Assembly: GCA_013151775.1 (NCBI GenBank)
Contig: JAADHO010000213.1
Location: forward strand, 1-42,312
Reading direction: 5' to 3'
Source: Deltaproteobacteria bacterium
GTDB taxonomy: Bacteria > Myxococcota_A > Polyangia > Polyangiales > Houyiibacteriaceae
DNA length: 42,312 bases
Shown in pieces: positions 1-29,831 of the stretch (position 1 is its first letter; each line of letters opens with the position of its first letter). A program made the position numbers and the translations under genes. A model generated the notes under the pieces. It ran no database searches and was not told the origin of the DNA. It was given only the letters and a program-made list of their open reading frames with translations.

Positions 1-3000
1 GTGCGAGACGTCCCCGCCCAAGTCGATGGGGAAGCGTCCCTCGACGGTCGGCGCGTGGGCGTCTCGCGTGTCGATCAGTGTCGCCTCTCCAGCGGGGTCC
101 AACGCCAAGAGATCGCCCGCCAGGGTCAGCAGGCGCTCCCCAGTGACTCCAAGGGGAACTGTCTGGAACGGCACTGCGTGGTTCGCTCCGTACCAATTGG
201 CGGGCGTGTGACTGAAGCGCAGAAGATCGCCGTCGGCCGTGAGCGCGAAGAGCGCGTCGCGCTCCACGGCGAACGCCGTCACGACCCGATCGGTGAGAGG
301 GAAGATCCGAGGTCTCCACAGACCCGAATCGGGCTCCGTATAGTCCTGATAGAAGAACAGACCCTGATCGGTGAGCAGGGCGAAGCCCTCGTAGCGGGTG
401 TCCGGAAGGGTGCCGTACTGATACCAGCTCGCGCCCCCGCGTAACCCTGTCAGCGCGCTCCCATACACCGAGAGCGGCGCGCTCGCGGCGCCGAGAGCCA
501 TGCCCAAGACATCGCGGTGGACGATGACACCGTCGACTTCGAGCAGCAGCTCCTCTTCCCGGACGACCATCGCGGTGACGTTGCCAACGGACTGCTCGGA
601 GACCACACGGTGACCATCCTGCGGGTCGAGGATGACGAGACCGAGAGGACCCAGGCCGACGGCGACCCTCCCCCCGAGGTAGGCCAACGCAGTGATGTCG
701 GCGTCGAGCCGTGCCACCTCGGTCACGACGCCTGCACCGTCCGACAGGAAGAGGCTCCGCCCTTGGGCGAAGTAGGTGCCGCCCACACCCGGCAGCGCGG
801 AGGTGAAGGGTAGCGCTGTGGGATCAGGCGCAAGCGTTAGCGCAGGCACGACCTCGACGCGCCGCTCGGCCGATCGGGTCGCGCCGAGCCCATCGAAGAA
901 GGTCGCGGTGACCCGAATGTCTGCCGTGGTGGCAGGAACCACGAAGGGTGCGGAGGTCTCCCCGGTGGCGAGGAGCACGCCCGTGTCGTCGCGCACTTCG
1001 ATACGCGAGAAGGCGGCAGCCGGCGGATTGAGCACGACCGGAACCAGCCGAGAGCCCAGCATCACGCGGTCAGCCACGCCACCAATCGCGGGCTCGGGTA
1101 GCCTGTCCCCAGGTCGCACCTGAACCGGCACGGGAACCGACTCCAGCCAGTCGAGGCGCGGCCCGTAGTAGGCCCGCACGCTGACGCCATAAGCTTCCGC
1201 GGCCACCACGGGCGGAGCGGAGAAGCTGAGGAGTGCAGCGGGGGAGGTGACCAGGTGGCGCGCCACCACGGCGCCAGCGGAATCCGTCAGCCGGACCTCT
1301 GCGAAGCGGAAGGGACCGACGGCTGCCGCGGGCGCGTGGAAGTCCACGCGGATGGGCGCACCCTCGACGAACTCCTGCGCGATGGTCGGCTGGTCGAGGA
1401 GAACGACGCCGGATCCCGGAGCGTTGGGCGCCACCGTGACGGCGCCCGAGGCCACCACCACGCCATCCGCCGTGACCGCCAGCGCCGCGGATGAGGAGGC
1501 GGCCGGCACGTCGAACCACATCGCCGCATCCTCCGGCGCTAGAGCCATCGTGGATGGCGCGGATCCGTCGAAGCTCGCCTGAGCATCGGTCACTCGCGTA
1601 GCGGGCCCGAACACGACGTGCACCGGCGCGAGGGCCCCCTGCGCGAGGGTCTCGCCTGGCGCCGGGGTGACTGTGACGGGTGAGGTCACGGAGGAAGTGT
1701 CGTAGGGCGTCGTCGCCGTCTCCCGGATCCCGCCGCGGTCATGTCGATCGACCAGGATCTGGCCTCCAGAGAGGACGGCTCGCGTCACGAACCACTCGGC
1801 ACCGCTCGGCGTCCACACGGGCGCTGCCGGCAGGCGCGAGCCGTCCGGAGCACGCAGGGCGTAAAAGTCTCCGCCGAGGGTCGCGCCCGGCGTCTCGACG
1901 ACGACGGCCACACCGTGGGCGTGCTCCTCTGGAATGATCGAGAGTGCGTCTCCAGACGATTGCGCGGCGAGCGAGTGGGCGACCAGATCGCCGGTCGGCG
2001 TTCGCTCCAGCTGACGCTGGGCTCCCCACACCAGAAGATCACCGGCGCCGCTGCGAAGCGCCACGAGCTCGTCGCCGCGCAGCACGTGCCAAGTGTTGCT
2101 GCCGCTGGCGGCCTGAATCCGGACCCAGAGCAGGTCGCCGTCGAAGAAGGCGTCCCGAATGGTGCCGCCAAGCTCCACGCTCCCGAGGTCGAGGAGCTCT
2201 CCCTCGGCTCCGCCGCCCGCTGCCGTCAGCAAGCGGAAGCGACGCAGCGTGCCACCACTGAATGACACGAGCTGCTCGCCCGAGACGCGGAACCCGGTGG
2301 CCGTTCCGAGGTGGCTGTGGAAGATCGGCTCGAGGTGAGGGACATCGGTGAAGGACACCGAGAACGCTGACAGACCGCCGAGCGTCGAGAGCACGAAGAG
2401 CCGATCGCCGTCGACCCAGAGACTCCCGGGCTCCGCGGCGAGTGCGGCGCCAGCGAGCGCGACTGGCGAGACCGCTCCGAAGTCCACTCCGTCCACGACG
2501 TGGCCGTGCCGGGTGAACGCCACGCTCCCGCTGCCTCCCAGGAGTTCGCCATCGAAGGGCGTAGTGCGCGCAGGACCGAAGCCGCTCGCCGTCATGGGCC
2601 AGTAGCAAAGGGTCGTCCCGCCCGAGCCGTCGTCCACTTCGGCGAGGAGCCCGGAGCCAGTGAAGGAGAGGCGCGCGATGGATCCCGTGGGGGCCGAGTC
2701 GATGGCGCCGGATTCTCCGAGGAGGTCCCAACCGCCAGCGATTCGCTGCGTGGCCCAGACGGCCTCATCACCCGAGACGACTGCGGGCACCGTGACGGCA
2801 CCGATGACTCGCTCACCGACATCAGGCGAGGTGACGGTCGTCGTGGCCCCCGCAAGATAGGCCAACTTGGTCAACGACTCGGTCGTGACGTTCTCGTTGC
2901 CAGAAAGGTCTCGGAGCGTCGCCACAACGTCGACGGTGGCGGCGCCGGGCGCGAGGTCGATCTGCTGAAGCCCGACGCCGATGGCCACGGAGCTGGGCAT

Positions 3001-6000
3001 CGATGTCCCAGCGGGGTCCTCCACCTGCACAGTGGAAGCGTCCGAGAAGTCCTCCATCCCGTCGGGAGCCGTGGCGGCCACCCACAGCTCGCTCCCTCCG
3101 AGAACCGTCGCGGCCGGAGTCACGGTCAACGCCATGGCCTCCGACACGCTCTCGTCATTCAGGATGTTGACCAGTCGCCGCGCGACAATGGGTGGACCTG
3201 AACCCGGAACGTAGGTCAGTCGAAGCACGAGGGTGCCATCGGTCGGGACGCTCGGGAGCGTCACGGGCACGAGCATGCGCTCGGGATCGGTATCGAGACG
3301 GCTCAACGAGATGGGCGCGGGGTTCAGTGGATTCGCTTCGTCGCCACCGAGATCCAGGGCGAGCTCCGCGTCGAGGATGGCCGACAGCTCGACCTCCACC
3401 TGAACGCTCTGACGCTCGCGCAGCGTATCGCCGTCGCCGGGGGAGAGGATCGCCAACCTCGGCGCCTCGCCGTCGCCGTCGAAGGGCGAGAGGGTGATGG
3501 TGGTGCTGCCGCGATTGCCGGCTGGATCGTAGGCGGCGACCTCGATGCTGACCGGAGTGGTCGTCGCCGGCGTGAAGGCGAAGAGCGTCGGATCGCTCAG
3601 GACGACGGGCGCCGCACCATCCACGGCCACCTCGACCCGGTCGACCCCATAGGCATCGAATGTGCGAACGCGCAGGTCCACGCGCTCACCCACTGGCACC
3701 GCAGCGCCATCCACAGGAGAGACCACCGCGACCGTGGGAGGCGTCGTGTCGAGATGAACGGTGAAAGTGTCGCTCCGGGTGAGGGTTCCCGATGAACCGT
3801 GGAAGAGCGTGACGGTGACAGGAATGTCACTGCTGCCCAGGGTCGCGGCTTGGACGTCGGCCAGCGTGGGCACCTCATAACGAAGCCAGTAGTCCCGGGT
3901 CGCCGGATCGACCGTGGTGACCTGAGCAGCATAGGTGTGCGAGAAGATCCGCATCTCCGCCCGGGTCACCAGATTCACGTCGGAACCGGTCGCTCGGTAC
4001 GTGAGCGTCGTGCGCGTGCGCTCCTCGACCGCAGCCGGGTCAGTGCCGAGAGCTGCGACCGAGATGTCCGGCGCCGATACGGGCAATGACACATCCTGAC
4101 TGGCGACGTTGCCGGCCGCATCGCGCGCCTCGACGCGGAAGACAAAGCCCACGTCCGATTCCACGACGTCCACGCTCAGCGTGCCCGAAGTGCTCGGCGG
4201 ACCGAAGGACAGACCGAGGTCCCGCGATACACGGACGCTGAAGGCGACGGGTCCTCCCAGATTCTCGTTCGCGGTGGCGACGAGGTCGTAGTGACGACCC
4301 ACGACCAGGCTCGACACGGGCTGCCCCGGCCCAACGCGAACACCAAGGTCGGTCAATCCCACGTCGCGCGGCGGCAGCGTGTCTCGCCCTTGATAGGTCG
4401 TGACGATGGGTGTCCCACTGTTGGCCAGGTTGCCGGCCAGATCGGCGACCCCAGCGACGGTGAAGGTGTAGAGGTGGTTGTCCTCGACCAACTCGCCGGG
4501 CCGCAGGGCCACACGGACAGTGTCCCCGGCCTCGGTCAACGCGAAGCGCGACGTGACATCCTGGGGAGCGGCCGGGAGATAGTCTTGGTTGAGCGCACTC
4601 ACCGCGAGGGATGCGCCAGCGACGAGTTCGTCATAGCGCAGCGAGAGGGGCCATGTGGGACGGAATGCGGTCTGCTCGATCAGCCTCGGCGGAGAGTCGT
4701 CCTGACAGGTGATGGCGGCCAGCTCGGACACCGAGTCGCCGGTTGCCACACGGTTCACGACGACGTCGTAGGTCGCGCCGGCAATGCAAGGAGGAGAGGC
4801 GAAGCGGAGGCCATCCGAGAGCGGCGTAAACTCGGCGACGCGGTTGATCGCCGACGGTGACGACCCCGTGATCGGCAGGTAGAGTTCGAGCTGTCCTTCG
4901 ATGCCCGCGCCCGCCACGCTCACCTGGGTGCCGCCGGCGTCGCTGATCACCCGGGGACCGGCGGGGCTGTCCGTCGTGATGGAGGAGATGGCAACCGGAG
5001 CCGTCACCACCAGCGCCGCCGGTAGGTGGACGAGTTCGGCCCCACCCGAGACGGTTGCGGTGAACACGCCAAGCGTCGGCATGGTGACGACGAAGCTGAT
5101 CTCCGTAGCGTCGGCGTTGAGCGCGAAGCTGGCCGGGGATACGCCTCCGATGTCCACCGCGGTGACGGCGTCCAGGCCTACGCCTCGCATGGTGAGGGAG
5201 GTGGGTGCGCCCTGAACCACCGTGGCAGGGCTGAGAGTGGCAACCTCGAGGTCGGCGACTCCGAACAAGGGCGCGCTGCGCACGATCCAAGACAAGTCGT
5301 GCGTCAGCGTGCCTCCATCGATCCGCGAAGTGGGAGGCGTACCCACGGTAACTTCGTAGGTCGCGTCGCGCTCGAAGCTCTCTCCGACCGGCGCGAAATC
5401 CAGGCTGTCTGCCCCGAGGGTCGCGCTCCCAGACACGACGTGATCCATGGAGACCTCACGCACAGAGAGAGTGGCGCCTGCGAAGGCCGTTCGATCGCCA
5501 GCAAGGCGCGCGCGCACTCTGCCGGTCGGCGACTGAATACGCGTGGGCGTCACCTCATGCACGAAGGAGAGAGGCAGCGACAGGCTCTTGCAGACCGTCG
5601 GAGTGCGCCAGCTCAGCCAGCCCCCCGTCATGTGGACTTCAGAGGCATTGTAGGAGTCCAAGCGCGCGACGGGCTCTAGGCTCACGGAGCTTGCGCCACG
5701 ATTGACGTCGTAGAGTTGGAGCTGTCCACCACCCTCTTCGATCGTCGCGAGCAGCTCCCCGGACATGGAAGCGTCAACCAGGCCGGTGAATCCGGACGCG
5801 GTGCCGAGGGGCGAGAGCTGTCCGCCCGCTGCGAGGTTACCGGTGAGGAAGATCTGCACAGCCGCCTCACCCATGACGACCAGGCGCTGAGGCGACACGC
5901 TCAGTGCCTTCGCGTTCACGATGTCGAGCGTCACCGGAAGAGCTATGGAGGTCGACGGATCATGCAGATCACGTGCTTCCAATGTTCCGTCGGCGAGCAG

Positions 6001-9000
6001 CAAGTAGAGCACGTCTCCTTCGACCGCATGGTCGATGAGCCCGGGCACGGCCAGGGTCTCCCAGCCCGCACCGAGGATTGAGCCGACATGGATCTCGTCG
6101 GTGCCTCGGGTGACGAAGGTCGTGCCCGAGAGCACCAGGCCAAGCTGCGGGGTGGCAAACGCGTTGACCACGCGGTTGACTTGCTCGGGCGCGTAGAGGT
6201 CCGTCAGGTCGTAGACGACCAGCTCCTCCCCCTCGAGCCGCGCAACGAGGTACCCCCCCTGGAGCGCGACCTCCCGTGCCAGGCCGGGAAGGTCGATATG
6301 TGCGAGCAGCGATGGCAACTCCGAGTCACGCGCCGAGGCCAAGTCGAGGGACGCTCCCGACCCGGTGACGACCAACCCCCCGTCGCGCGCGATCAAGCCA
6401 CAGGCCGTCGCCTCCCAATCGGGCTCGAAGACGACCTGCATCTCGCGATTCTCGGCGACCGCGCCGGCGCCGTTCGAGACCTCGATGGTCAAGGAGCCGA
6501 TGGTCTGGCCCGGCGTCGAGAAGACCAGGAGATCGGGTCGGACCAGGGCCACATCGGAAGCCGCATGACCGTTCACCGCGACCGTGGTCAGCGGACCGAA
6601 GCCCTCGCCCTCGAGGCCAATCAGCTCACCGCCATTGTAGCGAACGGTGCGACGCCAACGGCGGAAGTAGGACAGGCTCGAATCGTAGACACCGACGGTG
6701 TGAATGAGCGGATCCGAGACATAGGTGAAGGCAGCGGGCGCGAAGTCGCTCTGCTCGCCATTGCTCACCTCGACGCCGACGAGGCGGTCCGCAGCCTCTG
6801 CCGAAGCGAACTCCGGGGTCACTACCGTCAGGCTGTTGGACGTGAAGCCTCGCACCTCCGCCACCGGCACGCCGCCGATGGACGCCGTGGTACCCGCACC
6901 GAAGCCACTGCCGGAGAGGATGACCTCTTCACCGCCTCGCCAGGAACCGAAGCGGGGCGTCACTTCGTCGAGGACGGGGGTGGCGTCGAGCACCACGCGG
7001 AAGGGGAAGGTGTAGTCGGCAGACAGGCGGTCTCCCCGCAGGTCGGCGAGCGCCTCAGACACACGCACGGAATACGCCCCCACGGCGAAGGCCGAGGCCG
7101 GCCGGAAGACGAGGCGCGTCCCCTCAGGCGTCACGCGGCCCGACACGAACCCGGCGATGGGTACGTCCCCGCGACTGACCACGAAGAGCTCGTCGCCCCG
7201 GAGGCTGACCATGTCGGGGTCGAGGATGCGGTTGAACTGAACCTCCACCGTCCCATCTGGTGAGATGGCTGCGCCAGGGCTGGGGCTCTGGTCCACGATG
7301 GCCAACTCCGTATCCCCAAGCGTGACGATCGCCCCATCGATACCGCTCGCGCACGAGTCCCCGCTCGCACAGGACAACGGGTTCTCGCGCGGCGTCGGGT
7401 CCGTACCCGCCACCACGTAGGTGGTGCCCGCATAGACGGCACCGCGCCCGAGGGCGAGCGCGTGGACGGCGCCGGGGACGGCGAAGTAGTTGCGCAACGT
7501 GGGGGCTGTGGCGAAATCGTCGGCGAGCCACGGGCTCACGTCGAAGACCTGCACGTCGCCATCACCGCTCGCCACGTAGAGCGTCTGCCCGGTCAGTTCG
7601 AGCTGTCCTGCGTTGATGTCCGTGCCCGCGGTGAGGAAGACCAAGGCAAGCTGGGCGACGGGGACTGTGGGCGAGCCCGGGCGACGCTGGAAGGCGACGA
7701 CGGACGCGCCCTGCCCGCTCGACACGAGCAGCAGGTCGTCGCGCGCCACCAGGTGACTCGGTCGAATCGGATTCCCAGCGCGATCGGTCGTGGCCACCCT
7801 CTCCACGATGCCGAAATCACCGTCGACCAGGTCGATGGCGACCATCTGGTTGGCCTCTGGCACGGCGGCCCAAAGCACATCACCGCTGAGCGCCAGCTGG
7901 CCAGGGACACCCCCGAGGCTGTCGGCTGGAACGAGCGCAAGCTGCTCGAGACGCGCTTCGGGGCCGAGGCGGTAGATGCGGACGCCCCGACCGGCGGACA
8001 CGAAGAGGAGGTCGCCCGAGGCAAGCAGCCCCGTGCCCACGTCGGGCGTGCCGCTGTCTGTCAGGAAGAGGCTTGTCTCCTCGATGACCGTCGGCGCCGT
8101 GGGCACCGTGATGTCGATGTTGAAGAGATGGCTTCCTCCGAGGAGGTAGAGATGATCGCCGGCCAGGGAAAGCGCGCGGAACCCGTCGGGCGCCAGCGGC
8201 ACCTCCAAGTGGTAGGGCTTGGGCGAGTCGCCTCGCGTGTCTTCGACGAGCGTCGGGCGGACGGGGTCGGAGAGATCACTCAACACCAGGCGGGCCGTGG
8301 TAGTCGTCAGGGTCTGGACCACCTCTCCGGCGGTGTTCCGAACCTCGTAGCTACCGCCCGTCACGGCGAAGAGCAGCTGATTGCGAACTGCGATGGCTGC
8401 AACGGGGCTGCCGTCCGGCGTGTCCACCGATCCTGTCTCGGGGTTCGTGTAGAAGTAGGCCCCTGGGAGCACGCTCCCTTCGCCCTCGAAGAGCGTGCTC
8501 TCCAAGGCGACATCCACGGCGCCGAGGGAGCCCGCTGGCGCACGAACTCGAAGGTGTCCAGCGCTGAGCGCCTCGAGGTCGCCGGCGACGGCGCCTCCGA
8601 ACGTGACTCGCACGTTGTCGCTCAGCCCCTCACCGAAGAGGTCCACGCGGTTGCCCCCCGTGGGCGGTCCGGTCGCGGGATTCACGACCTGCAATAGCGC
8701 CGCCGGCTGAATGATGACGGCTCCATCCAAGGTCGCCGGCACGCCATCACGCAGAATGGTCACGTCCAGCACAGTGGTCCGCAGCGCCAGACTCATCGCC
8801 GGCATGGTGAAGTGCAGCTCCGCGTCAGATACGAGCGCCAGGGACGCGGACGGAACCAGGACATCACCGACGACGATCGAGAGCGCCGATGCATCCGCGC
8901 CGAAGTTCGCGCCGAGAGCCACCGCGGTCTCCGAGCCGTCGGCGTGGAAGAGCGGCACGGCGCCATCCCGCAACACGGCCGTGAGGCTGGGACGGACGCC

Positions 9001-18000: not shown

Positions 18001-18903
18001 GGGGCCATCCTGATGGGTAAAGACGAGCAGCTCTCCCGAATCGTTCAATAGATGCGCGGATGCGGCGGCGTTCCCGTCGACCAGTATCTGCATCTGGCTG
18101 ACGTAAGGGGACACGGCCGAACGGGGCGCCCCAGGCAACACACCGCTCTTGGACGCCAGCACGAAGTTTTCGTCGGAGTAAAGCTCGGTGATGGTGCCCA
18201 CGAAGATGTCGCTCAAGGCGTCGGCCGAATCGAGATAGCTGTTGCCCGCGCCGTCCGTGACAGTCGCGCTGCTCGCCTCGGCCAGGAGCAGGCCCGTGAC
18301 GGGCGCCACCCGTTGAGCCGGCGCGACGCGGAGCACGTCCTGCTCCGCGGTCGTGAGATTGCCGAGGCCACTCTCTAGGCGCATCGGATCCTGCGTCGAC
18401 CAGGCCCCGACAAGCGCGCCTGTTCGAGCGGGTGCGCGGTCTTGGTCGGCGGCGCCGTAGTAGACGTGACGAGCGGCATCCTGGATTTCGGGAAAGGCAG
18501 GATCTCCAGCCGCCCAATAGACGTGGGTCGCGACCGGCATGCCTATCTCGTGCGTGGTCACCTCTTCCACGGTGTGGGCCTCGGTCGTCACGCGAGTCGT
18601 AATGCGCACGCGCTCGTTGCGCATACCCTCGCGCACGAAGAGGGACCCATCCGCGAGTAGGCCTGAGTACTCGTAGTAGAAATTGTCAGGATCACTCGCG
18701 GCGCCGTCCAACGCGAGCGCCGGCACGTCGGTCGCAGCGAGTTGCACCCACTCCCCAGTGCTGTCGTCCTGGAACTCGCGAACGAGGTGCGAAGACACGA
18801 CGCGCTCGGCGAGCACACCCACGTCCCGTACACCGATGCGCAAGGTGACGGCCTCGCCGGAGGTCAGGATCGCCCCGTCGGCAGGGGAGAGAACCTGAAT
18901 CCG
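1..18903 (-). CDS. C-terminal part of the giant protein, with propeller/Big_5/IPT supermodules (segment 3 of 3, partial)
   Basis: This is a single open frame of about 6,300 codons with codon starts at positions divisible by three. It runs from the seam at 18,903 to the left edge with no stop, so the C-terminus lies outside. It begins with an Ig domain (RIQVLSPADG), then a spacer of about 250 residues. Seven supermodules follow between about 18,050 and 4,700, each an LVIVP-type beta-propeller, a Big_5-like Ig domain and two IPT/TIG domains. From 4,680 to 2,850 there are more Ig-like domains, from 2,840 to 1,900 a degenerate propeller, from 1,880 to 860 Ig-like domains, and from 840 to the edge another propeller-like stretch. 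Cys pairs occur near 11,800 (CRIERSCEIC) and 7,350 (CASGDSC). No sorting motif is visible because the end is missing. An extracellular binding or structural role is inferred. Confidence 0.85.
4700..18050 (-). repeat. Seven tandem ~2-kb protein supermodules (propeller + Big_5 + IPT + IPT)
   Basis: Approximate right-to-left starts of the units are 18,050, 16,290, 14,290, 12,310, 10,220, 8,420 and 6,420; the last ends near 4,700. In each, LVIVP-like blades (patterns such as 'A-x-G-x-x-G-L-V-V-x-D-x-x-D-P-x-x-P') are followed by a Big_5-like domain (for example VRLQFTRPLD, VEVQFNRILD, IRVRFNQLID). Two IPT/TIG domains come next (for example SLAPERGSVNGG, VNPATGPPTGG, VTPRFGSWRGG, each followed by a GxGF-type motif). 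Sequence identity between units looks low, so these are old duplications rather than recent DNA repeats. Boundaries are good to about 50-100 bases. Confidence 0.75.
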
Positions 18904-21900
18904 GCACGACGGTGTCTTCGACAGTCCCGACGGTGATCGTCTGTGACCGTCCCGATTGACCCAGGCGGTCGTAAGCGACAGCGTAGATCTCGAAGCCACC
19001 CACCCCATCTGGGGGGAAGATGTCTGCCTCGTACCAACTCTCCTGCGTCGCCAACCCGGAGGTCACGCTGGCCGGATCGTAGGCGGTGTAGATCGGCGTC
19101 CCAGCCAAGTAGAAGACCACGCGATCGATGCCCTCGGCGCCGAGGTCATCGCGCGCGTCCACCACGATGCGCAGGTCTTCGCCCTCGATCAGCGCCGACT
19201 CGGTCGCGGCGGGCAGTATGATCGAGGCCGTGGGCGGTTGGTCGGCAGTGATCATCAGCCGCTTCACGATGGATGGCGCGGACACCTTGCCATCGACATC
19301 CGTCGCCTCGGCCCAGAAGCGCAAGGCCTCGCCGACGCGGCCGGCAGGGACCGTGTAGTGGAACTGGAAGGGCGCGGCGACATCCTCACCTTGCAGGGTG
19401 AACGAGTCGATGGGCACGTCATCGCCGAGCGCGATGAAGAGCCGAACCGCATCGACGCCGACCTCCAAGTCACGCGCCACGACGTTCACGACGATGCCAC
19501 GCCCCTCCGTGATCTCAGCGACCGAGGAGCCAAGGTTGAATCCCCGCGAGTCGAGGACTTGCATGTCCGTCACCTCGGGAGGCTGATTCCGCACGAGAGT
19601 CACGGGACGCCGGGCGGTGACGGTATTGCCCGCGCCGTCCCGAGCCGACATCTCCACGCGCATGGCAGCCGTGGAGGACGTATTCTCCGCTCCAAGGTAG
19701 TTCTCGAAGGTATCTACGCGGAACGTACCCGCGTAGGGAGGCTCCGTGAGGAAGCGACGTGCCACCTCTTCGTCCGGCGTGAAATTGCCATCCTCATTTG
19801 CGTCGACGTAGAGCACGGCCTGGAAGGTCGACACGCGCACGTTGTCCAGCACCTCCGCCGCAAAGCGCAGCTCGCGCTGCTCGACCGCCGTCGCACCGGT
19901 CGCAGCCGGAGCCAGCACCGTCAGTGTGGGGGCCTGGTCATCCAGTTCCACGTGCACCACCACGGCAGAGCTCGTCATCGAGGTACGCCCATCGCCGAGC
20001 CCACTCGACTCCGTCGCACCCGCGGTCAACGAGAGATCGGCACCGGCCTGACCGTAGGGCACTGGGACCAGGAACTCGAAGGGATAGGTCGTATCGACGA
20101 AGGTGCGATCACCGGTGATGAGCCCCGCCACGTTCAGCGCGACGCGATTGATGCCGACGTCGTCGATGGCGTTGGCTTGCACCAAAAGGTACTCGCCCTC
20201 GGTGATGAAGGAGTCGTTGGCGGGTCTGCCGATGCGGACCGTGGGGGCTTCGTCGCGCACGATCTCGACGCTGACGGTCTCGAGGGCTCGATGAGCGTCG
20301 AGATCGCCCGTGACGACGCCATAGGAGTCAACCGCCTCGACCGAGACGACCACGATGTTGTTCTCTGGGGCGGCAGCGTCGAACGCGGGCACGTCCAAGC
20401 GAAATTGATAGGGCGCCGTCCGCAGAGTGAGATTGGCGATCTCGGTCCCTGACACGCCATGCGTCGCCACGAGCCGCACGTTGTCCACGGCAACGTCGTC
20501 GAAGGCGTGTACGAGCACCGACAGCCCGCTGCCCTCCACGGTCGTTGCACCGGGGAGAGGTGAGACGACGTCGATCACGGGGCGCTCATCGACCCGGATC
20601 GGGAAGCTGACCTGGCGCTCCCGGCGGTTGCCAGACGCATCGACGGCGGTGAGGCGCAACCACACGTCGAAGCGGGTGCCAGTCTCCACGGGGATCGTCG
20701 GGAACAGCGCGGCGAGCTCGGCCAGACGCGGCACAGGGACGTTCTGCGTGTACTCGGGCGTGTCGATGTTTATGGTCGACAAGGGCTCGAAGTCGGCGCT
20801 CTCGATAGCCGCAACCGTGCGAATCGGAGCGCCGTAGGCCTGCTGGACGTAGCTGCCGTCAGGCGACCGGATGGCAAAGGTCCGAGAAAGCTCCATCCGC
20901 TCGACCTTCACGTTGTCGTAGCCCCGGAACCGCACGGGGAAAGTCGTGTTCTCGTGGGGCGCGAAGCCGAGAGCTGGCTCCAAGAAGGCGACCTCGGGGT
21001 TGATGTCGTCCGGAGCGCTGAAGAAATGAACTTCATCGCGCCCGATCACTCCTTCAGCGTCCTCGACCACCGCCACGAGGGTGATCTCCTCGCTGCCGGT
21101 CACGAGATCCGAGGGCATGGCGTAGGGCAGTACGAACCGCGTCAGGTGCTCATAGTCAGGGGCAGAGAGCCTAGCCGCCACGTCGGGATCGTACTTGGCC
21201 TCGAGCGCGTCATGGATCTCGCCCAGCGCTTGGGTCACGGCGGCAGCATCTGGTGAAGCAAATGTGCCAACGCCAGCTATGGGCTCGAGGCGCACGCCAT
21301 TCGCGTAGATGGTGATGTCACTCGACGAGAAGGAAGCGTCGTCGGTCGCGACCACACCGACCTGTATGTGGAACGTTCCCGCTGCCACCAGCGCAGCGTC
21401 CGAGGGCGTAGTGATGCGCAGCTCCGGCGCCAAGTTGGCGACCGGATGCACCAAGAATCGCCGTCCCGTCTCCTGACCCAACGAATCGCTGACAACAGCC
21501 TCATACTGCGTCGCGTCGAGCCGGTCGAAGACGAACTGAGCGGTGATCAACGCACGGCGCCGATTCGCTTCGGGACACGGTGTGAGGAAGTCCCGCGTGA
21601 AGATCGCCCCCCCCACACGCGTCCCCAGCGCGTCGAGCTGGAACACCTGCACTCCGGCTAGCGCGGCGTCGTCGGAGGCGTCCACCGCGAGCCGCAGCTC
21701 AGCACCTTGGCGAGCCCAGAACTCGGATCGGTCGAGCCGCGTGGGCGAGGTGATGATGGAGTCGGCAGCCCCGAGTGGGCCGGAGGCGAAGCTCTCGAAC
21801 GAGAGTTGGGGTGGAGCGTTGGGGTGAATCGGATAGGCCACCGTGGTGCTGCCACTCGCACCGGCGAAGTTCCGCGCGACCACAGAGAGCCTCAGCTGCC

Positions 21901-24895
21901 CGCCAGTGAACGCCGCGGGAACGTCGTACACGAAGGTGTGCTGTCCTACGGTGAAGCCGGGGTGGGTGACGTCTAGGACCGTGCCGTCGTCGCCAACCAG
22001 CGAGAGCGTGTCGAGTGCGCCCGTGTCCTCGATGACGCGAACGTCCAGGAGGAGCCGCTGGCCAGGTACGACCTCCGTGCCACCCTCGGGTGAGACCACG
22101 TCGACGCGCGGCGCGCTTCCCTCCGCCTGGACGATTCGTTGAGACAATACGTCCAACGCCCGAGGCGGGCGCTCCGGCGAGAACCGATCGACGGCCACAG
22201 CCAGGACACTGAGCTCCTGGACGTCGTAGTTTCCAGGAACGGGGACGGCGTAAAATGAGCTGTGTTCGCTACCGCCGGACACCTCCCTGACAGCATGGGC
22301 GCCGACAACCGATAGTCCGCTGCGGGCGTCGTCACGCACCAGGGCGGCGATCTGGAGTTCGGGTAAGCCGAGCGAGCGAGTTCCGTCAACAGCCTCATAG
22401 GTCGTGGGTCGGTCGAGAGCGTGGAAGTAGAGTCGGAGCGACTGCAGATACCAGTCGACCTCCACTCCGCTACCATCCAGGACTCGGATCGCTACGTCGG
22501 CGTAGACGAGCCGCTCGTCGGCTTCCAGTGGCGCCAAGTCGACTCCAGCCGCGTCGGTCACAGTCGAGGTCGACACCGAGTCCGAGCAGCCGCACCCCGC
22601 ACACGTGCGACGCTGGGTGACATCGTACGCCACGGTGTACCCGGTGGGCACGGCGAAACGCAGAGAGGTGCCATCCGACGACGTGGAGACCGGGTGCACG
22701 CGGAGGTTTCCGTCGCCCGTGGTCTCGAGGTAGACGTGCCCGTGAACGAAGAGCTGACTGACCGCGCCACCGGCCTCTGGATAGCCCGCGGTCAAGACCG
22801 GCACGACGCCTGACGCCGTATCCACGCCCTCCCCTGTCGCCGATCGCGTCGCCGAATCCGCGATACCGTCGAGCGAAGTGTAGACGGAAAAGTATCGAAG
22901 TGGATCTGCCGGCCCAATGAAATCATCGGTGACGCGGAGACCGTGAAACGCCAGCCCGCCCCGGGCGACCTCGGTCTCGGGGACAGGATCGACGAGCCGA
23001 ACCTCGGGGGCGTCATCGGAGACGATCCGGACGCTGGTCGAGCTACGGGCGTCATTGCCTGCAGCGTCCGTCGCCTCGGCGACCAAGACGAACTCGTTCG
23101 CCGCGGGATCGGTGGCGTTGTATGCCCCGATGGGCAGCGTAAACGTCGGCGCAGCAGAGTCGGAGCCGGTCACGGCTTGATCGACGAGGTCGACCGCATC
23201 GCCCTGCAAGAACACACGTACGTGGGCCAACTCGATGTCATCGGAGAAGCGCACCCTTGCGAGAAGGTCTTGCCGCTCGACCACCATCGGTCCCGGCTGC
23301 ACGAAGCTTATGGTCGGCGACACCTCGTCTCCGACCACGGTAACGGCGACCGGCGAGGACTCGGCGCTGTTGACGCCGCGGTCTCGAACCTCGATGACGA
23401 GGTCGTACGTTCCACCCACAGCGAACGCCGTGGGCATCTCCAAGGTACCGGTGAAAGTCGTGGCGAAGCGCTGCGCAGTGACCTCAGATCCGAATCCGCC
23501 CGGGCTCGGCACACTCGTCGTCTCAACGCGATCTTCGCGGCGGAGAGAGGCCCACGGGACCTCAGTGCGCGTTCCGTCCGACGCCACAAATACGGCGGTG
23601 AGCGCATCGACGTAGCGATCGTCGGAGGCCTCACCGACGATTCGCAGGGGGTCGCCGACTCGGAGCTCTTGCGGTCCTGACGGCTCGTTCAGAGTAATGC
23701 GGGGAGGTTCGAGATCCTCTAGGATCGTCAACTCGACGAGCGCTTCGGTTTCGGAGCCGCCGCTATCCGTCGCTCGAACGCCGATACGAACCGGATCTTC
23801 TGGACCTTCGGATTTGCGCGGGACCCGAATCGAATGGGAGAATCGACCGCCTGCGGCCATTCCACCCGCCACGGTCGCGCCCGTAAACGCAAACTCGTCG
23901 ATCGGCACACCGCCTCGCTCGACGAAGAAGCGAACACCCGTCACGGCCCGGTCGTCACTGATCTGAGCGGTCGCCGTGAAGGTCTCACCCTCCGCGAGGC
24001 GCTGCCCCGCTGGCGGGGATGTGATCGTCACCTCCGGTCCTGCGTCTACGCTCACCGGATAGACCCACTCGGTCGTGCGCTCCTGCCCGAACGAGTCGCG
24101 CGCGGTGAGCGACAGCCTGAGCTCCGTAGCCCCACTCGGCACGGGCAGTCCGAACGCACCGCTGGCCTCCCGCAGCGTGAGGTCCTGCGTGAAGACAACG
24201 CGGGTTCCGTCAGACACCTCGACGTGCTCGAGAGGCGATTCGTCGTTGGCGCGCCACTCGAAGGTCGCAGTCGTTCCCGAATAGAGCTCAGTGCCGGCGA
24301 TGGGTGATGTGATCGCTGCGTGGGGAGCGTTGGAGTCGGCCGCCACCGCGATCGCCTGCGTCGTAACCGGCGCGGCGTCCGTCGAGCTCTGACCGCGCGT
24401 GTCTCGCACGACTACCTCGGCCCGGATGGCGTGGGGCGCGTTCGTCAGGGCCAAAGCCGCGAGGTCGAGGTGGAAGGTGTGGGTGACGTTGGCCGCAGCT
24501 GGCGAAGGCGTGAACGTCTCCTGGCTGGCCGGTGAGCCCGCCGCGTCGACGAAATACGACACGGTCATCGAAGCAACGCCAACATCATCGATGCCTTGGA
24601 CCGCGAGCACCACGTCGTCCCTTGGGAAGTAGAGGTCGCGGGCGACGTCGATGACGCCGACCCGCGGCGCGACGTCGCGTTTGACGGCCACGGTCACCGA
24701 GGTGGTGGAGCTATTTCCAGCTCCGTCCGTTGCGACAACCTCGAGGGGATAGCGCTCGTCAGGCACGGCTGCCGCGCCGCTGAACACGGGAATCGTCAAC
24801 AGCTTGATGGCCGAGAACGCGTGCAGCGCTCCCGGTATCGGATCGGGTGTCAGCTCGGCCTCGGGGAGCTCGTCTGCGAGGTCGCCTGTCAGCAC
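18692..24895 (-). CDS. Middle segment of the giant Ig-like protein (segment 2 of 3)
   Basis: About 2,000 codons continue the Ig-domain array of segment 1 in a frame shifted by one base. The formal GTG at 24,895 is probably not a true start: no ribosome binding site precedes it, and the coding sense extends upstream to the seam near 24,940. At least 15 Ig-like repeats can be counted by their opening motifs, for example PPRITLNEPSG, APRVDVVSPEGG, PEVTITSPPAGQ, RPVIDVVSPLPG and PPTASIILPAA. Most are followed by a DD-x-x-V element. A Cys cluster, TCAGCGC, sits near 22,590. Sense is lost after EDTVV near 18,903. The last ~70 codons of the formal frame are Arg-rich nonsense, while the next frame reads RIQVLSPADG, the start of another Ig domain. 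I read this as one gene with segments 1 and 3. Confidence 0.82.
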   Translation of the reverse strand: MLTGDLADELPEAELTPDPIPGALHAFSAIKLLTIPVFSGAAAVPDERYPLEVVATDGAGNSSTTSVTVAVKRDVAPRVGVIDVARDLYFPRDDVVLAVQGIDDVGVASMTVSYFVDAAGSPASQETFTPSPAAANVTHTFHLDLAALALTNAPHAIRAEVVVRDTRGQSSTDAAPVTTQAIAVAADSNAPHAAITSPIAGTELYSGTTATFEWRANDESPLEHVEVSDGTRVVFTQDLTLREASGAFGLPVPSGATELRLSLTARDSFGQERTTEWVYPVSVDAGPEVTITSPPAGQRLAEGETFTATAQISDDRAVTGVRFFVERGGVPIDEFAFTGATVAGGMAAGGRFSHSIRVPRKSEGPEDPVRIGVRATDSGGSETEALVELTILEDLEPPRITLNEPSGPQELRVGDPLRIVGEASDDRYVDALTAVFVASDGTRTEVPWASLRREDRVETTSVPSPGGFGSEVTAQRFATTFTGTLEMPTAFAVGGTYDLVIEVRDRGVNSAESSPVAVTVVGDEVSPTISFVQPGPMVVERQDLLARVRFSDDIELAHVRVFLQGDAVDLVDQAVTGSDSAAPTFTLPIGAYNATDPAANEFVLVAEATDAAGNDARSSTSVRIVSDDAPEVRLVDPVPETEVARGGLAFHGLRVTDDFIGPADPLRYFSVYTSLDGIADSATRSATGEGVDTASGVVPVLTAGYPEAGGAVSQLFVHGHVYLETTGDGNLRVHPVSTSSDGTSLRFAVPTGYTVAYDVTQRRTCAGCGCSDSVSTSTVTDAAGVDLAPLEADERLVYADVAIRVLDGSGVEVDWYLQSLRLYFHALDRPTTYEAVDGTRSLGLPELQIAALVRDDARSGLSVVGAHAVREVSGGSEHSSFYAVPVPGNYDVQELSVLAVAVDRFSPERPPRALDVLSQRIVQAEGSAPRVDVVSPEGGTEVVPGQRLLLDVRVIEDTGALDTLSLVGDDGTVLDVTHPGFTVGQHTFVYDVPAAFTGGQLRLSVVARNFAGASGSTTVAYPIHPNAPPQLSFESFASGPLGAADSIITSPTRLDRSEFWARQGAELRLAVDASDDAALAGVQVFQLDALGTRVGGAIFTRDFLTPCPEANRRRALITAQFVFDRLDATQYEAVVSDSLGQETGRRFLVHPVANLAPELRITTPSDAALVAAGTFHIQVGVVATDDASFSSSDITIYANGVRLEPIAGVGTFASPDAAAVTQALGEIHDALEAKYDPDVAARLSAPDYEHLTRFVLPYAMPSDLVTGSEEITLVAVVEDAEGVIGRDEVHFFSAPDDINPEVAFLEPALGFAPHENTTFPVRFRGYDNVKVERMELSRTFAIRSPDGSYVQQAYGAPIRTVAAIESADFEPLSTINIDTPEYTQNVPVPRLAELAALFPTIPVETGTRFDVWLRLTAVDASGNRRERQVSFPIRVDERPVIDVVSPLPGATTVEGSGLSVLVHAFDDVAVDNVRLVATHGVSGTEIANLTLRTAPYQFRLDVPAFDAAAPENNIVVVSVEAVDSYGVVTGDLDAHRALETVSVEIVRDEAPTVRIGRPANDSFITEGEYLLVQANAIDDVGINRVALNVAGLITGDRTFVDTTYPFEFLVPVPYGQAGADLSLTAGATESSGLGDGRTSMTSSAVVVHVELDDQAPTLTVLAPAATGATAVEQRELRFAAEVLDNVRVSTFQAVLYVDANEDGNFTPDEEVARRFLTEPPYAGTFRVDTFENYLGAENTSSTAAMRVEMSARDGAGNTVTARRPVTLVRNQPPEVTDMQVLDSRGFNLGSSVAEITEGRGIVVNVVARDLEVGVDAVRLFIALGDDVPIDSFTLQGEDVAAPFQFHYTVPAGRVGEALRFWAEATDVDGKVSAPSIVKRLMITADQPPTASIILPAATESALIEGEDLRIVVDARDDLGAEGIDRVVFYLAGTPIYTAYDPASVTSGLATQESWYEADIFPPDGVGGFEIYAVAYDRLGQSGRSQTITVGTVEDTVVPDSGSLPCRRGDPDLRRGRHLAHRCTGRGCARRARRVFAPRSRVPGRQHWGVGATRCDRRAGARVGRRRE
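18898..18910 (-). other. Frame break 2 in the giant gene
   Basis: The minus-strand sequence GTC GTG CCG GAT loses sense, while the frame CGG ATT CAG GTT CTC begins a normal Ig domain (RIQVLSPADG). Skipping one C restores the frame. A missing 2-base unit giving VPRIQVLSP would also restore it and would match the 'PR-hydrophobic' opening of sister domains (APRVDVVSP, PPRITLNEP). The shift is in the same direction as at the first break. Confidence 0.75.
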
Positions 24896-26300
24896 GTAGC
24901 CCGCAGCACCACGGACAACCCCCCGGAGCTGTAGGCGCTTTGTCGTAGCCCGTGATGCGCAGCGTCACGTCGGTCTCTTCTGTAACGTCAGCAATGTCCG
25001 CGCCGGCCTCCGTCCGGGTGATCGTGGGAGAGACGAGGTTCACAACCGGGGGCTGGTCGTCCCGACCGAGCGTCACGGTGACGTCGGCGCTGCGCGCGCT
25101 GTGGCCGACGCTGTCGGTCGCAACAGCGTGGATGGTCAGCGGCTGCTCGTCCACGACGCCACCCGGGCTGCGGAAGAAGTAGGAATATGGAGCGCTCGAA
25201 TCCGCCCCGACGAGCGACCCATCCACAAAGAAGTCGACCCGGTTGACGCTGATGTCGTCGACCGCATCCGCGCGAAGTTCGACCAAGCTACCGGAGACGA
25301 CGCGGCTGCCGGCGACGGGGTGGGAGACGGAGACGGTGGGAGGCTGGTCTTCCTGGACGAGCAAGCGCACTTCGCCTGAAAGCGCGCGCTCGGAGTGGAA
25401 GTCCGTCGCCCGCGCCTGGAGCGTTAGCGTCGTCCCCAACCTGGAGGCGGGCACCGTAAGGAAAAAAGTGTGACGCGCGCGAGCGAGGACTCGTGATCCA
25501 CGCGTGCCACCGCTGGAGTCGCCCACGCGGAATGACTGATTGGCGACGCCATCGAGCAGCAGGTCAACGTCGACGCCCGCTCCAAGCGTGTCATCGGCAA
25601 CCTCGACTTCGACCGCGAGGCGCTCCCCTGCCGTGATCGAATCACCCGTGGCGGGTGACAAGACCACCGCCAACGGCTCCTGATTCGCAGCCACGACGAA
25701 GGGGCGACCGGTCCCCGGAGTGGAGGTCCCGCCAAAGCCGTGCGATACAGCCTGAAGGACACGCGTTGTCTCTCCCGTGGACACGTCTCCGACGAGCCCC
25801 GTCACACGCCACACTTCAAAATAGCATGGGACCTCTACGGAGCATCGGTTCTCGAATATCGGATAGCGCGACTCGCCGACGGGAGCGCCATCGACAATGA
25901 ACTCCACGAAGGCGACCGTGGTTCGACTCGGCTCAGCACCCACCGGGCTGGACGCCTGGTAGCGGATGGCGCTGCCCTCGATGTAACGCTCCATGAGCTC
26001 AGGCACATCGATGGTGACGGCCGGCACGGTGATGTGGCTGGTGTCGCTGACACGAACGACGGACTCGTCGGGGTCTGCGACTCCGCCTGCGGTGTCGGTC
26101 GCTTCAGCCCGAATTCGCAGCTCACTATTCCGCATGGACTCGTCGATATCCAAAGAGACCGAGAAGGGAGCGGCGTTGCGGACGCCGATGAGTTCGCCGT
26201 TCAGGAAGAATCGAACCTCCGCGATGCCCACGTCGTCGCGTACGGTCGGGGCGATGTCCAGGGTCTCACCAACGCCGATGGTGGACGCCAACGAGAGGCT
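19000..26300 (-). repeat. Tandem array of about 20 bacterial Ig-like domains
   Basis: Repeating segments of roughly 90-120 residues open with a Pro-rich 'P-P-x-V-x-x-x-x-P-x-x-G' motif. They continue with 'E/A-G-x-x-L-x-V-x-x-x-A-x-D-D-x-x-V-x-x-V' and often reach 'F-F-V-D-G' and 'D-x-x-G'. The pattern matches the Big_7/Big_9-like Ig superfamily. The repeats are diverged at DNA level. The array spans both frames either side of the break near 24,940, which supports a single ancestral gene. Confidence 0.75.
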
Positions 26301-27692
26301 CACCGTCGGCAACGCGTCACGGGCAACGAGGGGAACGGTCGTTGCCACCGTCGGCGAGCTGTGGAGAGAGATCGTCACGTCGACGGGCGCTCCATCGCCG
26401 ATGGCCGCCATGGACAGCACGCCCGTCTCTGCGTCGAGGTCCACGATGCCTGCACCGGCAGGGTCGACGACTACGTCGAGCGCGAACTGGCTCCCGACAG
26501 CCGCCTCCGTGCCGTCGTCGAAGATCCCAATCACGGAATGGATCGGGTAGCGCCGATTCAAGCTCGGGAGGACCCAGCGCCCCGCCGTATCGAGACCATC
26601 CATGCGAAGACCCACGAGCGACTTGCTGGTGTTGACCTCGACCGGAACGTCATCCGAGAACGTACCGTAGGAAGCCGTGATGCGAACGTCCACGACGGCG
26701 GTCTCGGCCAGCGGGTAGACAAGACCTGATGACGTGACCGCTACGATCTCCGGGTGGTTCGACGTATAGCGCACGCCGCTCCCGGAACCTGGCAGGGGCG
26801 TGGGCCCCCGGAACTGAAAGTCCACCGTTGGAACGATGGTGGCCATCTCGAGCAGATTCGTGAAGAGGATGCGGTCCGGGAGTGTGCTGAGACTACTCAC
26901 CGCCTCGTCGAGGTCGCCCCCCGTGAGCACGATCTTGGACAACGACGTCTGATTCCCTGACGCGTCGACAGCATGGGCCTCGACCAGCACGAGCCCGTCC
27001 GAGGAGATGGCGTCGGGATCGAGCTCCCCGATCACGTCTCCAGCCGCCGTGAGAGTGCCGACCGGCACCACCAACTCGAACGCGCCACTACCGTCGGTGG
27101 GCGGGAGTCGAAGGAAACCGCCGGTGTCGGCGAAAGCGCCCTGGCGCGCCTGGTCTACGATGCCACCGGCTGCCCGCAGCTGGGACGCCCGCAGACCGAC
27201 GACGGACACAGCCACATAGGAGATGTCCGTGTCGTCGGCAGCCTGGAGGCTCACTACCAAGTGTTGCCGGCCACCGAGCTTAGCGAAGCTGACGCCCTCC
27301 AGCGTGAGAGATGGCGGCTCCTCGTCCACCGCAAAGGTCTCGGTGTGCGTTTCGAACGTGCCATCAGCGTAGTGAGCCGTGACGGTAGGTGTGAGGCGTG
27401 ACGCACCAGTCGCTTCGAAGGTGAACTCGCAAGCAGCGTTGTCCGAGGTCGAACTCGCGTCCTCCACGCCGCGCGTCTCCGCGGCGGAACCTGAGCCGAT
27501 CACGACCGAGACCAGACTGGTGCAATCTGCGACCCGAACGACGTAGCTCGTCCGATCCTGCCCCGATACGAGCAGCCCGCTGACGCGAATGTCGAGGGCC
27601 GCATGGGCGCGAGGAAATGCTCCGATCGCGACGCCCAGGAGGGAGATGAGCACGAGAGCCGCCGCGACGAGTTTTCCCCTCAGCCGCCTCAC
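24759..27692 (-). CDS. N-terminal segment of a giant exported Ig-like multidomain protein (segment 1 of 3)
   Basis: This segment opens the giant locus. The GTG start at 27,692 is preceded by GGGGGAG four bases upstream. Residues 1-32 form a Sec signal peptide: basic MRRLRGK, a hydrophobic stretch, then AHA before ALD. Residues about 33-420 are Ig-like, including a Big_2-like domain near 26,600-26,850. From about 26,300 leftwards the frame holds repeated bacterial Ig domains of the form 'P-x-V-x-x-x-SP-x-x-G...A-x-DD-x-x-V...V-x-F-F-x-D-G'. Reading sense is lost after GYDK near 24,940. The last ~60 codons are Arg/Gly/Pro-rich and unlike the rest, and the domain continues in the next frame as KRLQLRGVV. 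The role is inferred as a cell-surface or secreted adhesin or scaffold. No enzymatic motif was seen. The family call is firm; the function is not known. Confidence 0.85.
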   Translation of the reverse strand: MRRLRGKLVAAALVLISLLGVAIGAFPRAHAALDIRVSGLLVSGQDRTSYVVRVADCTSLVSVVIGSGSAAETRGVEDASSTSDNAACEFTFEATGASRLTPTVTAHYADGTFETHTETFAVDEEPPSLTLEGVSFAKLGGRQHLVVSLQAADDTDISYVAVSVVGLRASQLRAAGGIVDQARQGAFADTGGFLRLPPTDGSGAFELVVPVGTLTAAGDVIGELDPDAISSDGLVLVEAHAVDASGNQTSLSKIVLTGGDLDEAVSSLSTLPDRILFTNLLEMATIVPTVDFQFRGPTPLPGSGSGVRYTSNHPEIVAVTSSGLVYPLAETAVVDVRITASYGTFSDDVPVEVNTSKSLVGLRMDGLDTAGRWVLPSLNRRYPIHSVIGIFDDGTEAAVGSQFALDVVVDPAGAGIVDLDAETGVLSMAAIGDGAPVDVTISLHSSPTVATTVPLVARDALPTVSLSLASTIGVGETLDIAPTVRDDVGIAEVRFFLNGELIGVRNAAPFSVSLDIDESMRNSELRIRAEATDTAGGVADPDESVVRVSDTSHITVPAVTIDVPELMERYIEGSAIRYQASSPVGAEPSRTTVAFVEFIVDGAPVGESRYPIFENRCSVEVPCYFEVWRVTGLVGDVSTGETTRVLQAVSHGFGGTSTPGTGRPFVVAANQEPLAVVLSPATGDSITAGERLAVEVEVADDTLGAGVDVDLLLDGVANQSFRVGDSSGGTRGSRVLARARHTFFLTVPASRLGTTLTLQARATDFHSERALSGEVRLLVQEDQPPTVSVSHPVAGSRVVSGSLVELRADAVDDISVNRVDFFVDGSLVGADSSAPYSYFFRSPGGVVDEQPLTIHAVATDSVGHSARSADVTVTLGRDDQPPVVNLVSPTITRTEAGADIADVTEETDVTLRITGYDKAPTAPGGCPWCCGLRADRRPRRRAPRGRADTRSDTGSAARVLGHQAVDDSRVQRRGSRA
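24933..24945 (-). other. Frame break 1 in the giant gene
   Basis: On the minus strand the reading GAC AAA GCG (frame 1) becomes sensible again as GAC AAG CGC CTA CAG if one A of the AAA run (24,939-24,941) is skipped. This gives GYDK-RLQLRGVVRGAAGY without loss of domain sense. A sequencing or assembly indel is the simplest reading; a real mutation is possible. No shift-prone slippery site or in-frame stop is positioned as in known programmed +1 shifts. Confidence 0.75.
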
Positions 27693-28082: not shown

Positions 28083-28190
28083 ATGTGGGGAATCGAGGAA
28101 ATGACGCAACCGCCAAGCTCGCTGGCCGAAAAGCAGGCTGACGTGAAGATCACGCGTCAGCTCCCCTACCCGATCGGCCACAGCACATGA
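28083..28190 (+). CDS. 35-residue small protein or leader peptide, translationally coupled to the LuxR-type regulator
   Basis: The ATG at 28,083 is preceded by the purine-rich GGAGGAGAGGAG, the strongest Shine-Dalgarno-like sequence in this neighbourhood. The frame encodes 35 residues, beginning MWGIEEMTQPP and ending IGHST, and stops with a TGA at 28,188-28,190. That stop overlaps the ATG (28,187) of the next gene as ATGA, the classic arrangement for coupled translation, and the next gene lacks a good ribosome binding site of its own. The peptide is hydrophilic with no membrane segment and no recognised family. It could be a real small protein or a leader that meters translation of the regulator. 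It is too short to judge by composition, and the call rests on the start signal and the overlap. Confidence 0.6.
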   Translation: MWGIEEMTQPPSSLAEKQADVKITRQLPYPIGHST

Positions 28191-28888
28191 ATTTCGCGCA
28201 AGTCCCCTCTCCGCACCATGTCGCTCACGGAACGAACCCGCCACGGGGCTCCGCCGACTGCTCGCACGCGTTCCTGCTGGTGGTGGACCCGAACGAAACC
28301 AGCCGCAGTGCCCTCGAGGCTGGCCTGAGCAACGGGCTGAGCAAGCATCGAGGCCGGGCAGCGCTCTCCGTTGAGGCGGGAGCCACCGCGACATGGGCGC
28401 GGGACAAACTCACCCGCGGACCTCGGTGTGCAGGACTGGTATGCGCCGCGACCGTGGGGACCCAGGAGGCGCTCGAGGTGATCGACGCGGTGAGGCTCCA
28501 CCACAACGCGGCGCTGTCCATGCTCATCGGACCGATTTCGGACCACGGGCTGGTTCGGGCCTGTGCGCAGCGGCTTGCGCTTTACAGTCCCAGCCCGGCA
28601 GATTCGATGACTTTGGCCGCGCTAGCCTCCAACGCCGCTGCCCGGCTACGCGCGGAAGCCATCGATGCCCAACGGACCGTCGTAGCCGCGCGCGCGGCTG
28701 AACTCGACCTCACCCGCCGTCAGGCCGACGTCCTCGATCTTCTCGCCCAGGGGATGGCAGGGCGACAGGTCTGCGCACAACTAGACGTGACTCGGAGCAC
28801 CTACCGGAAGCACGTGGCCACGATTCTGATGCGCACGGGCTACCGGCGAACGGCCGATTTGCTCGCGAGCTGGGACCTGGAGATGTAG
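28187..28888 (+). CDS. LuxR/NarL-type transcription regulator with a degenerate receiver-like domain
   Basis: This is a 233-residue cytoplasmic regulator. Residues ~28-140 resemble a response-regulator receiver: FLLVVDPNETS (D34) looks like beta-1 with part of the acidic pocket. The beta-3 position reads CAGLVCAATVG without the phospho-accepting Asp, and the beta-5 region reads LALYSPSP where Lys-Pro is expected. Residues ~174-228 are a LuxR/GerE helix-turn-helix: LTRRQADVLDLLAQG, then QLDVTRSTYRKHV and a final helix. The recognition region differs from the common 'TVKxH' form. The domain layout and missing residues suggest phosphorylation-independent action (inference). It is transcribed divergently from the giant gene and starts inside the stop of the 35-codon ORF. 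No partner histidine kinase is nearby. It could equally be called a stand-alone LuxR-type regulator. Confidence 0.78.
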   Translation: MNFAQVPSPHHVAHGTNPPRGSADCSHAFLLVVDPNETSRSALEAGLSNGLSKHRGRAALSVEAGATATWARDKLTRGPRCAGLVCAATVGTQEALEVIDAVRLHHNAALSMLIGPISDHGLVRACAQRLALYSPSPADSMTLAALASNAAARLRAEAIDAQRTVVAARAAELDLTRRQADVLDLLAQGMAGRQVCAQLDVTRSTYRKHVATILMRTGYRRTADLLASWDLEM

Positions 28889-29740: not shown

Positions 29741-29831
29741 GCGCGGCACGACGCTGAGCGTGTCTTCGCCAGCAGTGGGCTCAGGCACCGGGCCAGATGC
29801 CTCCCGCGCGCGGCGTGGTACATAGCGGGCC

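Follow-up and report, generated by a model that had tools for sequence, protein, structure and literature searches.

The window analysed here is a complete contig (C301; 42,312 nucleotides, nt) of the 460-contig, 6.05 Mb genome of an uncultured myxobacterium. The left 27.7 kb of the window is almost certainly occupied by one minus-strand gene, a single continuous member of a gene family, the remainder of which was located on a second contig of the same genome. It is one of the longer known bacterial genes and encodes an exported, bead-chain protein of ~11,600 amino acids (aa), referred to below as the giant protein. It is followed directly by two genes for PpiC-type peptidyl-prolyl cis–trans isomerases (PPIases).

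Reading frame and full length

As assembled, the region contains three minus-strand open reading frames (ORFs) that overlap head to tail: 27692-24759 (977 aa), 24895-18692 (2,067 aa) and 19008-1 (6,336 aa, open at the contig end). When this 27.7 kb was shuffled 20 times, no stop-free run exceeded 389 aa. The G+C content by codon position gave one coding signal, the phase of which changes only at the junctions at ~24.9 and ~18.9 kb. Joining the three frames yields ~9,225 aa, colinear with the intact frames of relatives, which bears out a preliminary description of the window as holding a single coding unit of more than 9,200 residues. The gene and its two frame breaks are located as follows.

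1..27692, minus strand: giant gene, N-terminal ~9,225 of ~11,620 residues, continuing past the left contig end onto G000:C43 (L018, minus strand, 9280 to 2255)
24938..24942, minus strand: frame break 1, as would result from the loss of 11 nt between CAA direct repeats, by comparison with intact relatives
18900..18904, minus strand: frame break 2, as would result from the loss of 2 nt (~18902) in a conserved Pro-Asp pair, by comparison with intact relatives

Relatives were searched for with the first 923 residues of the giant protein, and single uninterrupted frames were found in genomes G007 and G063. The G007 frame (11,656 aa from the likely start codon, single contig) is 49% identical and colinear over window residues 18-9222 (BLASTP); that of G063 (12,305 aa from the likely start codon, single contig) is 39% identical and colinear over residues 13-9219 (BLASTP). 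In G112, 11,245 aa are stop-free to the contig end (41% identity) and the next contig, overlapping by 87 nt, supplies the C-terminus, giving ~11,820 aa. G223, from outside the class, has 5,242 aa and 7,929 aa on two non-overlapping contigs (~13,170 aa), the two parts of which align to the G007 protein with almost no gap between them, and contig C19 of G557 carries 11,279 aa that run off the contig. A continuous homologous frame, proposed earlier as the supporting observation, is thus present end to end or nearly so in G007, G063 and G112; none of these three, nor G223 or G557:C19, is split at the break points, contrary to the outcome that had been named as refuting a single gene. The open-frame lengths of G560 (14,028 aa) and of G557:C466 (11,278 aa) were rejected as both run through masked N stretches.

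Both breaks look like small deletions, and both shift the frame in the same direction. The motif at break 1 (~24940) is GYDxVGVxxLxLRG in intact relatives; in the window, GGCTACGACAA is followed directly by AGCGCCTACAGCTCCGG, with eleven bases fewer. The two 1-base breaks of the preliminary description are therefore replaced by apparent deletions of 11 and 2 nt. The region falls into separate frames only because of these two lesions. Three independent genes that merely abut, which is how the three ORFs of the assembly would read at face value, are so improbable that we count this reading as already refuted: the frame of the relatives is uninterrupted across both break points and the sequence is conserved on either side of each. 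A recent pseudogene in this strain, with the giant protein made by relatives only, is a serious possibility although not one that we favour, and would be compatible with any functional reading. It would account for two frame-shifting lesions among intact nearby genes, and an 11-nt loss between direct repeats is atypical of homopolymer sequencing error; against it, ~11,550 codons contain no premature in-frame stop except at the two breaks, the codon-position signal is intact throughout, and a metagenome-type assembly is able to mix strain variants.

The C-terminus was located on contig C43 using the corresponding part of the G007 protein as the query. A 2,341-aa frame enters C43 at the contig end and terminates at 2255; the alignment leaves ~56 residues between the window edge and this frame. 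The full protein is thus ~11,620 aa with a mass of ~1.2 MDa (gap filled with average residues). No exact end overlap was found between the window and C43 or between the two G223 contigs, so that these joins rest on homology. The frame does run off the end of the window, as had been described, but its C-terminus is no longer undelimited; extension to the left, suggested earlier as a check, yielded the stop and neither a known sorting tag nor a membrane anchor.

Distribution

A profile of the N-terminal region found the giant gene in four of the 184 genomes of the order. Among 318 genomes of the class it added G556, G557 (two copies) and G560 with strong scores, together with three weak Ig-only (immunoglobulin-type) matches, and in a sample of 379 genomes of the phylum it added G223 with a strong score, besides weaker partial matches in other large proteins. 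The two G557 copies, one of them partly masked, are 57% identical over ~8,190 residues. The genome of the window and G007 belong to the same family. The giant gene was not found in the genus neighbour G001, from which nothing is concluded because that genome is only 81% complete. With IleS identity as a yardstick of relatedness, the values are 69% to G007, 43% to G063 and 31% to G223; this yardstick cannot separate vertical from horizontal descent. A search of part of the literature for the present combination in Myxococcota gave no match. The role of giant bacterial genes is difficult to investigate, as they tend to be strain-specific or little conserved; the present gene is conserved from end to end in several Myxococcota families, its shaft constant and its tip variable, and so lends itself to comparison, dating and testing.

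Domain architecture

The protein consists, in order, of a signal peptide, ~20 Ig domains, seven supermodules (propeller, Big_5, IPT, IPT), further Ig and propeller stretches, Big_1, TSP3, cysteine-rich repeats and two RCC1 propellers. The parts within the window are the following.

27597..27692, minus strand: start and signal peptide; GTG at 27692 with GGGGGAG upstream, hydrophobic core VAAALVLISLLGVAIGA, A-H-A cleavage-like site
26358..27596, minus strand: conserved N-terminal region without a confident Pfam domain
18906..26357, minus strand: array of ~19-20 bacterial Ig domains (Big_7 type), residues ~446-2924; Pfam and own profiles
16312..18363, minus strand: supermodule 1 (beta-propeller, Big_5, IPT, IPT); Pfam and own profiles
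14308..16311, minus strand: supermodule 2; AlphaFold model, propeller fold confirmed
12328..14307, minus strand: supermodule 3; own profiles
10264..12327, minus strand: supermodule 4; one of two IPT domains below threshold
8443..10263, minus strand: supermodule 5; own profiles
6427..8442, minus strand: supermodule 6; own profiles
4699..6426, minus strand: supermodule 7; own profiles
1..4698, minus strand: additional Ig-type domains in alternation with propeller-like stretches, continuing past the contig end; Pfam and own profiles

The signal peptide noted previously is recognizable from its hydrophobic core and cleavage-like site after the GTG start. It is the sole strong hydrophobic segment at either end of the protein, and the orthologues likewise begin with an exported N-terminus. 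Directly upstream of the start lies a divergent gene with a LuxR-type helix–turn–helix (28187-28888), a possible regulator. No fold is claimed for the N-terminal region because its structure model was poor (mean predicted local distance difference test score, pLDDT, 59).

The domain counts of the preliminary description held. Own profiles gave 20 Ig-type matches within residues 126-2924 (about 20 had been described), and IPT domains occur at seven places with a spacing of ~650 residues, in agreement with seven supermodules. Six of the places are pairs above threshold; at the fourth, only one member exceeds the threshold in all four proteins examined. A propeller region lies ahead of each IPT place, as does a Big_5 domain wherever one was detected. 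Pfam scans per domain, as had been recommended, confirmed Big_7, LVIVD, Big_5 and TIG above the curated cut-offs, which places the protein among Ig-like/TIG/LVIVD modular extracellular proteins; no enzyme domain was matched in these scans. The Big_5 profile strayed into Ig domains on iteration; counts from its late rounds were left out.

The AlphaFold model of supermodule 2 (mean pLDDT 77.7, predicted template-modelling score 0.80) supports its predicted propeller and IPT parts. Alignment to solved propellers in the PDB (Sec12, YncE) gave Z ~26 over ~280-310 residues, within residues 1-379; these re-alignments bear mainly on the propeller and not on the IPT part. In a Foldseek search with the same model, MET and plexins ranked first. 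Like the supermodule, plexin/MET ectodomains consist of a propeller followed by tandem IPT/Ig domains; they differ in that identity is ~10% and that in the giant protein a Big_5 domain separates the propeller from the IPT part and the unit occurs seven times per chain. No Sema domain was matched by Pfam in the giant protein, and the resemblance to plexin, semaphorin and MET is in fold only.

C-terminal tip and sorting signals

The stalk is conserved and the C-terminal end changes between relatives. The tail of the protein from the window genome comprises Big_1, TSP3, cysteine-rich DUF4215/TIGR02232 repeats and fourteen RCC1 repeats (RCC1_2, E 1.4e-40), the last as two sets of seven, as in RCC1-like propellers. 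It holds 54 of the 77 cysteines (beyond residue 10,700); the whole protein contains 736 Pro. The G007 protein has 14 RCC1 model matches, one of them outside the tail, and that of G063 has 20, its tip carrying an extra RCC1/cysteine-rich block. The G112 tip contains a LamG domain (E 6e-19) and a weak fibrinogen-like motif. TSP3-containing repeats were found in the C-terminal part of G223, and RCC1 was not; G557:C19 ends in TSP3 repeats and then sequence without an assigned domain.

MYXO-CTERM is a C-terminal motif with an invariant Cys followed by a transmembrane helix and an Arg-rich end (PMC11980579). The tails of the window, G007, G063 and G112 proteins gave no NCBIfam match to it (TIGR03901) at E 0.01, and a C-terminal hydrophobic segment is absent from the window, G007 and G063 proteins. 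Scanning the C-terminal parts with NCBIfam and Pfam gave no match to a type IX secretion system sorting domain. HemolysinCabind was unmatched in the giant protein, which, having a signal peptide, does not fall among RTX/type I adhesins.

Neighbouring PPIase genes

Directly downstream of the giant gene, on contig C43, lie the two PPIase genes.

L018:340-2276, contig C43: two PpiC-type PPIase genes (ppiC1, ppiC2), directly downstream of the giant gene

Their products are predicted PPIases, each with a parvulin-type domain (ppiC1, PF00639, E 6.7e-27; ppiC2, PF13145, E 2.4e-11), and in the window genome a possible ppiC1 start shares bases with the giant gene's stop codon (TGATG). The order giant gene–ppiC1–ppiC2 occurs in five genomes (that of the window, G007, G063, G112 and G223). 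In profile searches, with thresholds fixed before the result was seen, ppiC1 and ppiC2 orthologues were each found in exactly the four giant-gene genomes of the 184 in the order. The naive chance of such a coinciding pattern, ignoring relatedness, is 2e-8; the independent cases are G112, inside the order, and G223, outside it, because the other three genomes built the profiles. PpiC2-like matches in G195, G203 and G211 (E ~1e-18) were set aside: the neighbourhood in G203 is mfd-ppiC-surA and apparently housekeeping, and no giant gene is present at that locus or in the stretch read in G211.

The third gene downstream in G007, G063 and G112 encodes a lipoprotein that appears beta-solenoid-like by eye. 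At the corresponding place on C43 (L018:2-307) there is the start of an RTX-type lipoprotein, cut by the contig end.

PrsA proteins are described as known post-translocation secretion chaperones (PMC12826049). Like the parvulin foldases PrsA, SurA and PpiC, both downstream proteins carry PpiC-type PPIase domains; the difference lies in two divergent copies directly behind one giant gene, with the same phyletic pattern in the order.

Proposed function

We would give about an even chance to the proposal that the giant protein is an adhesive fibre on the cell surface that has export foldases of its own. In the simplest reading, one chain of ~11,620 residues (~1.2 MDa) would be exported by Sec. 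It would begin with an Ig stalk at the N-terminus, continue with seven plexin-like propeller/Big_5/IPT/IPT units followed by additional Ig domains and propellers, and end in an exchangeable C-terminal tip. We infer that the giant gene and the PPIase genes are co-transcribed and, again most simply, that the two neighbouring parvulin-type PPIases, periplasmic or lipoproteins, act as foldases on this client while ~740 prolines cross the envelope. After a presumed outer-membrane route, the end state would most likely be a cell-surface fibre, the tip of which may bind other cells, prey or particles; its extended length might be a few hundred nanometres (own estimate from domain sizes, ~4 nm per Ig). 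Adhesion is favoured by the pairing of a shaft that is conserved with tips that vary and are partly lectin-like. More tentatively, the locus could be a conserved export cassette, in which a surface fibre of >1 MDa and a dedicated PPIase pair, often with an adjacent lipoprotein, would provide a private folding route for a single client and exchangeable tips on a fixed multi-propeller shaft. Giant modular surface proteins are already known; a variant that has a multi-propeller shaft and linked foldases seems to be new. The linkage to two PPIase genes makes the export and folding of a megadalton protein directly testable.

Several observations weigh against the fibre with its own foldases. Neither an outer-membrane export partner nor a surface anchor was identified for the giant protein, and the fibrinogen-like match of G112 lies below the curated cut-off. 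The frame is broken twice in this assembly, and this strain might therefore make a truncated product only. No clear PPIase orthologue was detected in G556 and G560 (fragmented or masked assemblies), and a ppiC1 homologue in G557 (contig C63; E 3e-86) sits behind a 2,658-aa Rhs-like gene; the foldases may therefore not be exclusive to the giant client. The G557 arrangement also suggests that PPIases of this type may have a broader role with large exported repeat proteins.

A structural role, in which the chain would polymerize, or pack into an envelope layer or extracellular matrix surrounding the cell, and would not primarily be an adhesin, is unlikely in our estimation. The repeat-only architecture, free of enzyme domains in the Pfam scans, would suit it, as would the adjacent beta-solenoid-like lipoprotein gene in three of the five genomes, and a 39,678-aa Omnitrophota protein has been proposed to form a coat (PMC10066038); a variable tip on a conserved stalk nevertheless fits a binding tip better than a lattice, and the gene is rare in the order. 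We regard as rather improbable a predation or contact device comparable to the Aureispira grappling hook, a giant surface protein that would catch prey. Predation is known in Myxococcota (PMC11980579), and Foldseek with the supermodule model picked up a fragment of Aureispira GhpA (E 5.6e-8), but this match, with a root-mean-square deviation of 64 and low TM-scores, shows shared Ig-like units only, and the host is an uncultured genome.

Comparison of the proposed adhesive fibre with known systems shows partial likenesses. GhpA (PDB 9flw) is also a giant bacterial surface protein with Ig-like parts; it comes from another phylum, and the single weak Foldseek match to a fragment does not demonstrate homology. 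Large Gram-negative RTX adhesins of the LapA/SiiE/BapA type are likewise very long Ig-repeat surface proteins, but they lack a Sec signal at the N-terminus and have type I secretion signals at the C-terminus, whereas the giant protein has a signal peptide and no RTX match in its tail. The giant Omnitrophota ORFs (e.g. 39,678 aa in V. archaeovorus), proposed as adhesins or for predation, are also very long, single-frame and predicted to be extracellular, and some contain LamG, as does the G112 tip (PMC10066038). They often have many transmembrane helices, few recognized domains and poor conservation; the giant protein family, in contrast, shows no clear transmembrane anchor apart from the signal peptide, has domains recognizable along much of its length and is colinear across families.

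Other features of the window

Antisense open frames of >1,000 aa lie opposite real genes at 12310-15510 (plus strand) and 29781-32975 (minus strand) and are a high-GC by-product without coding evidence. The genes ileS and lgt are convergent with a 17-nt overlap (33019-33035); lspA comes next and is followed by a CusA/CusB/OEP-type efflux operon extending up to 40780.

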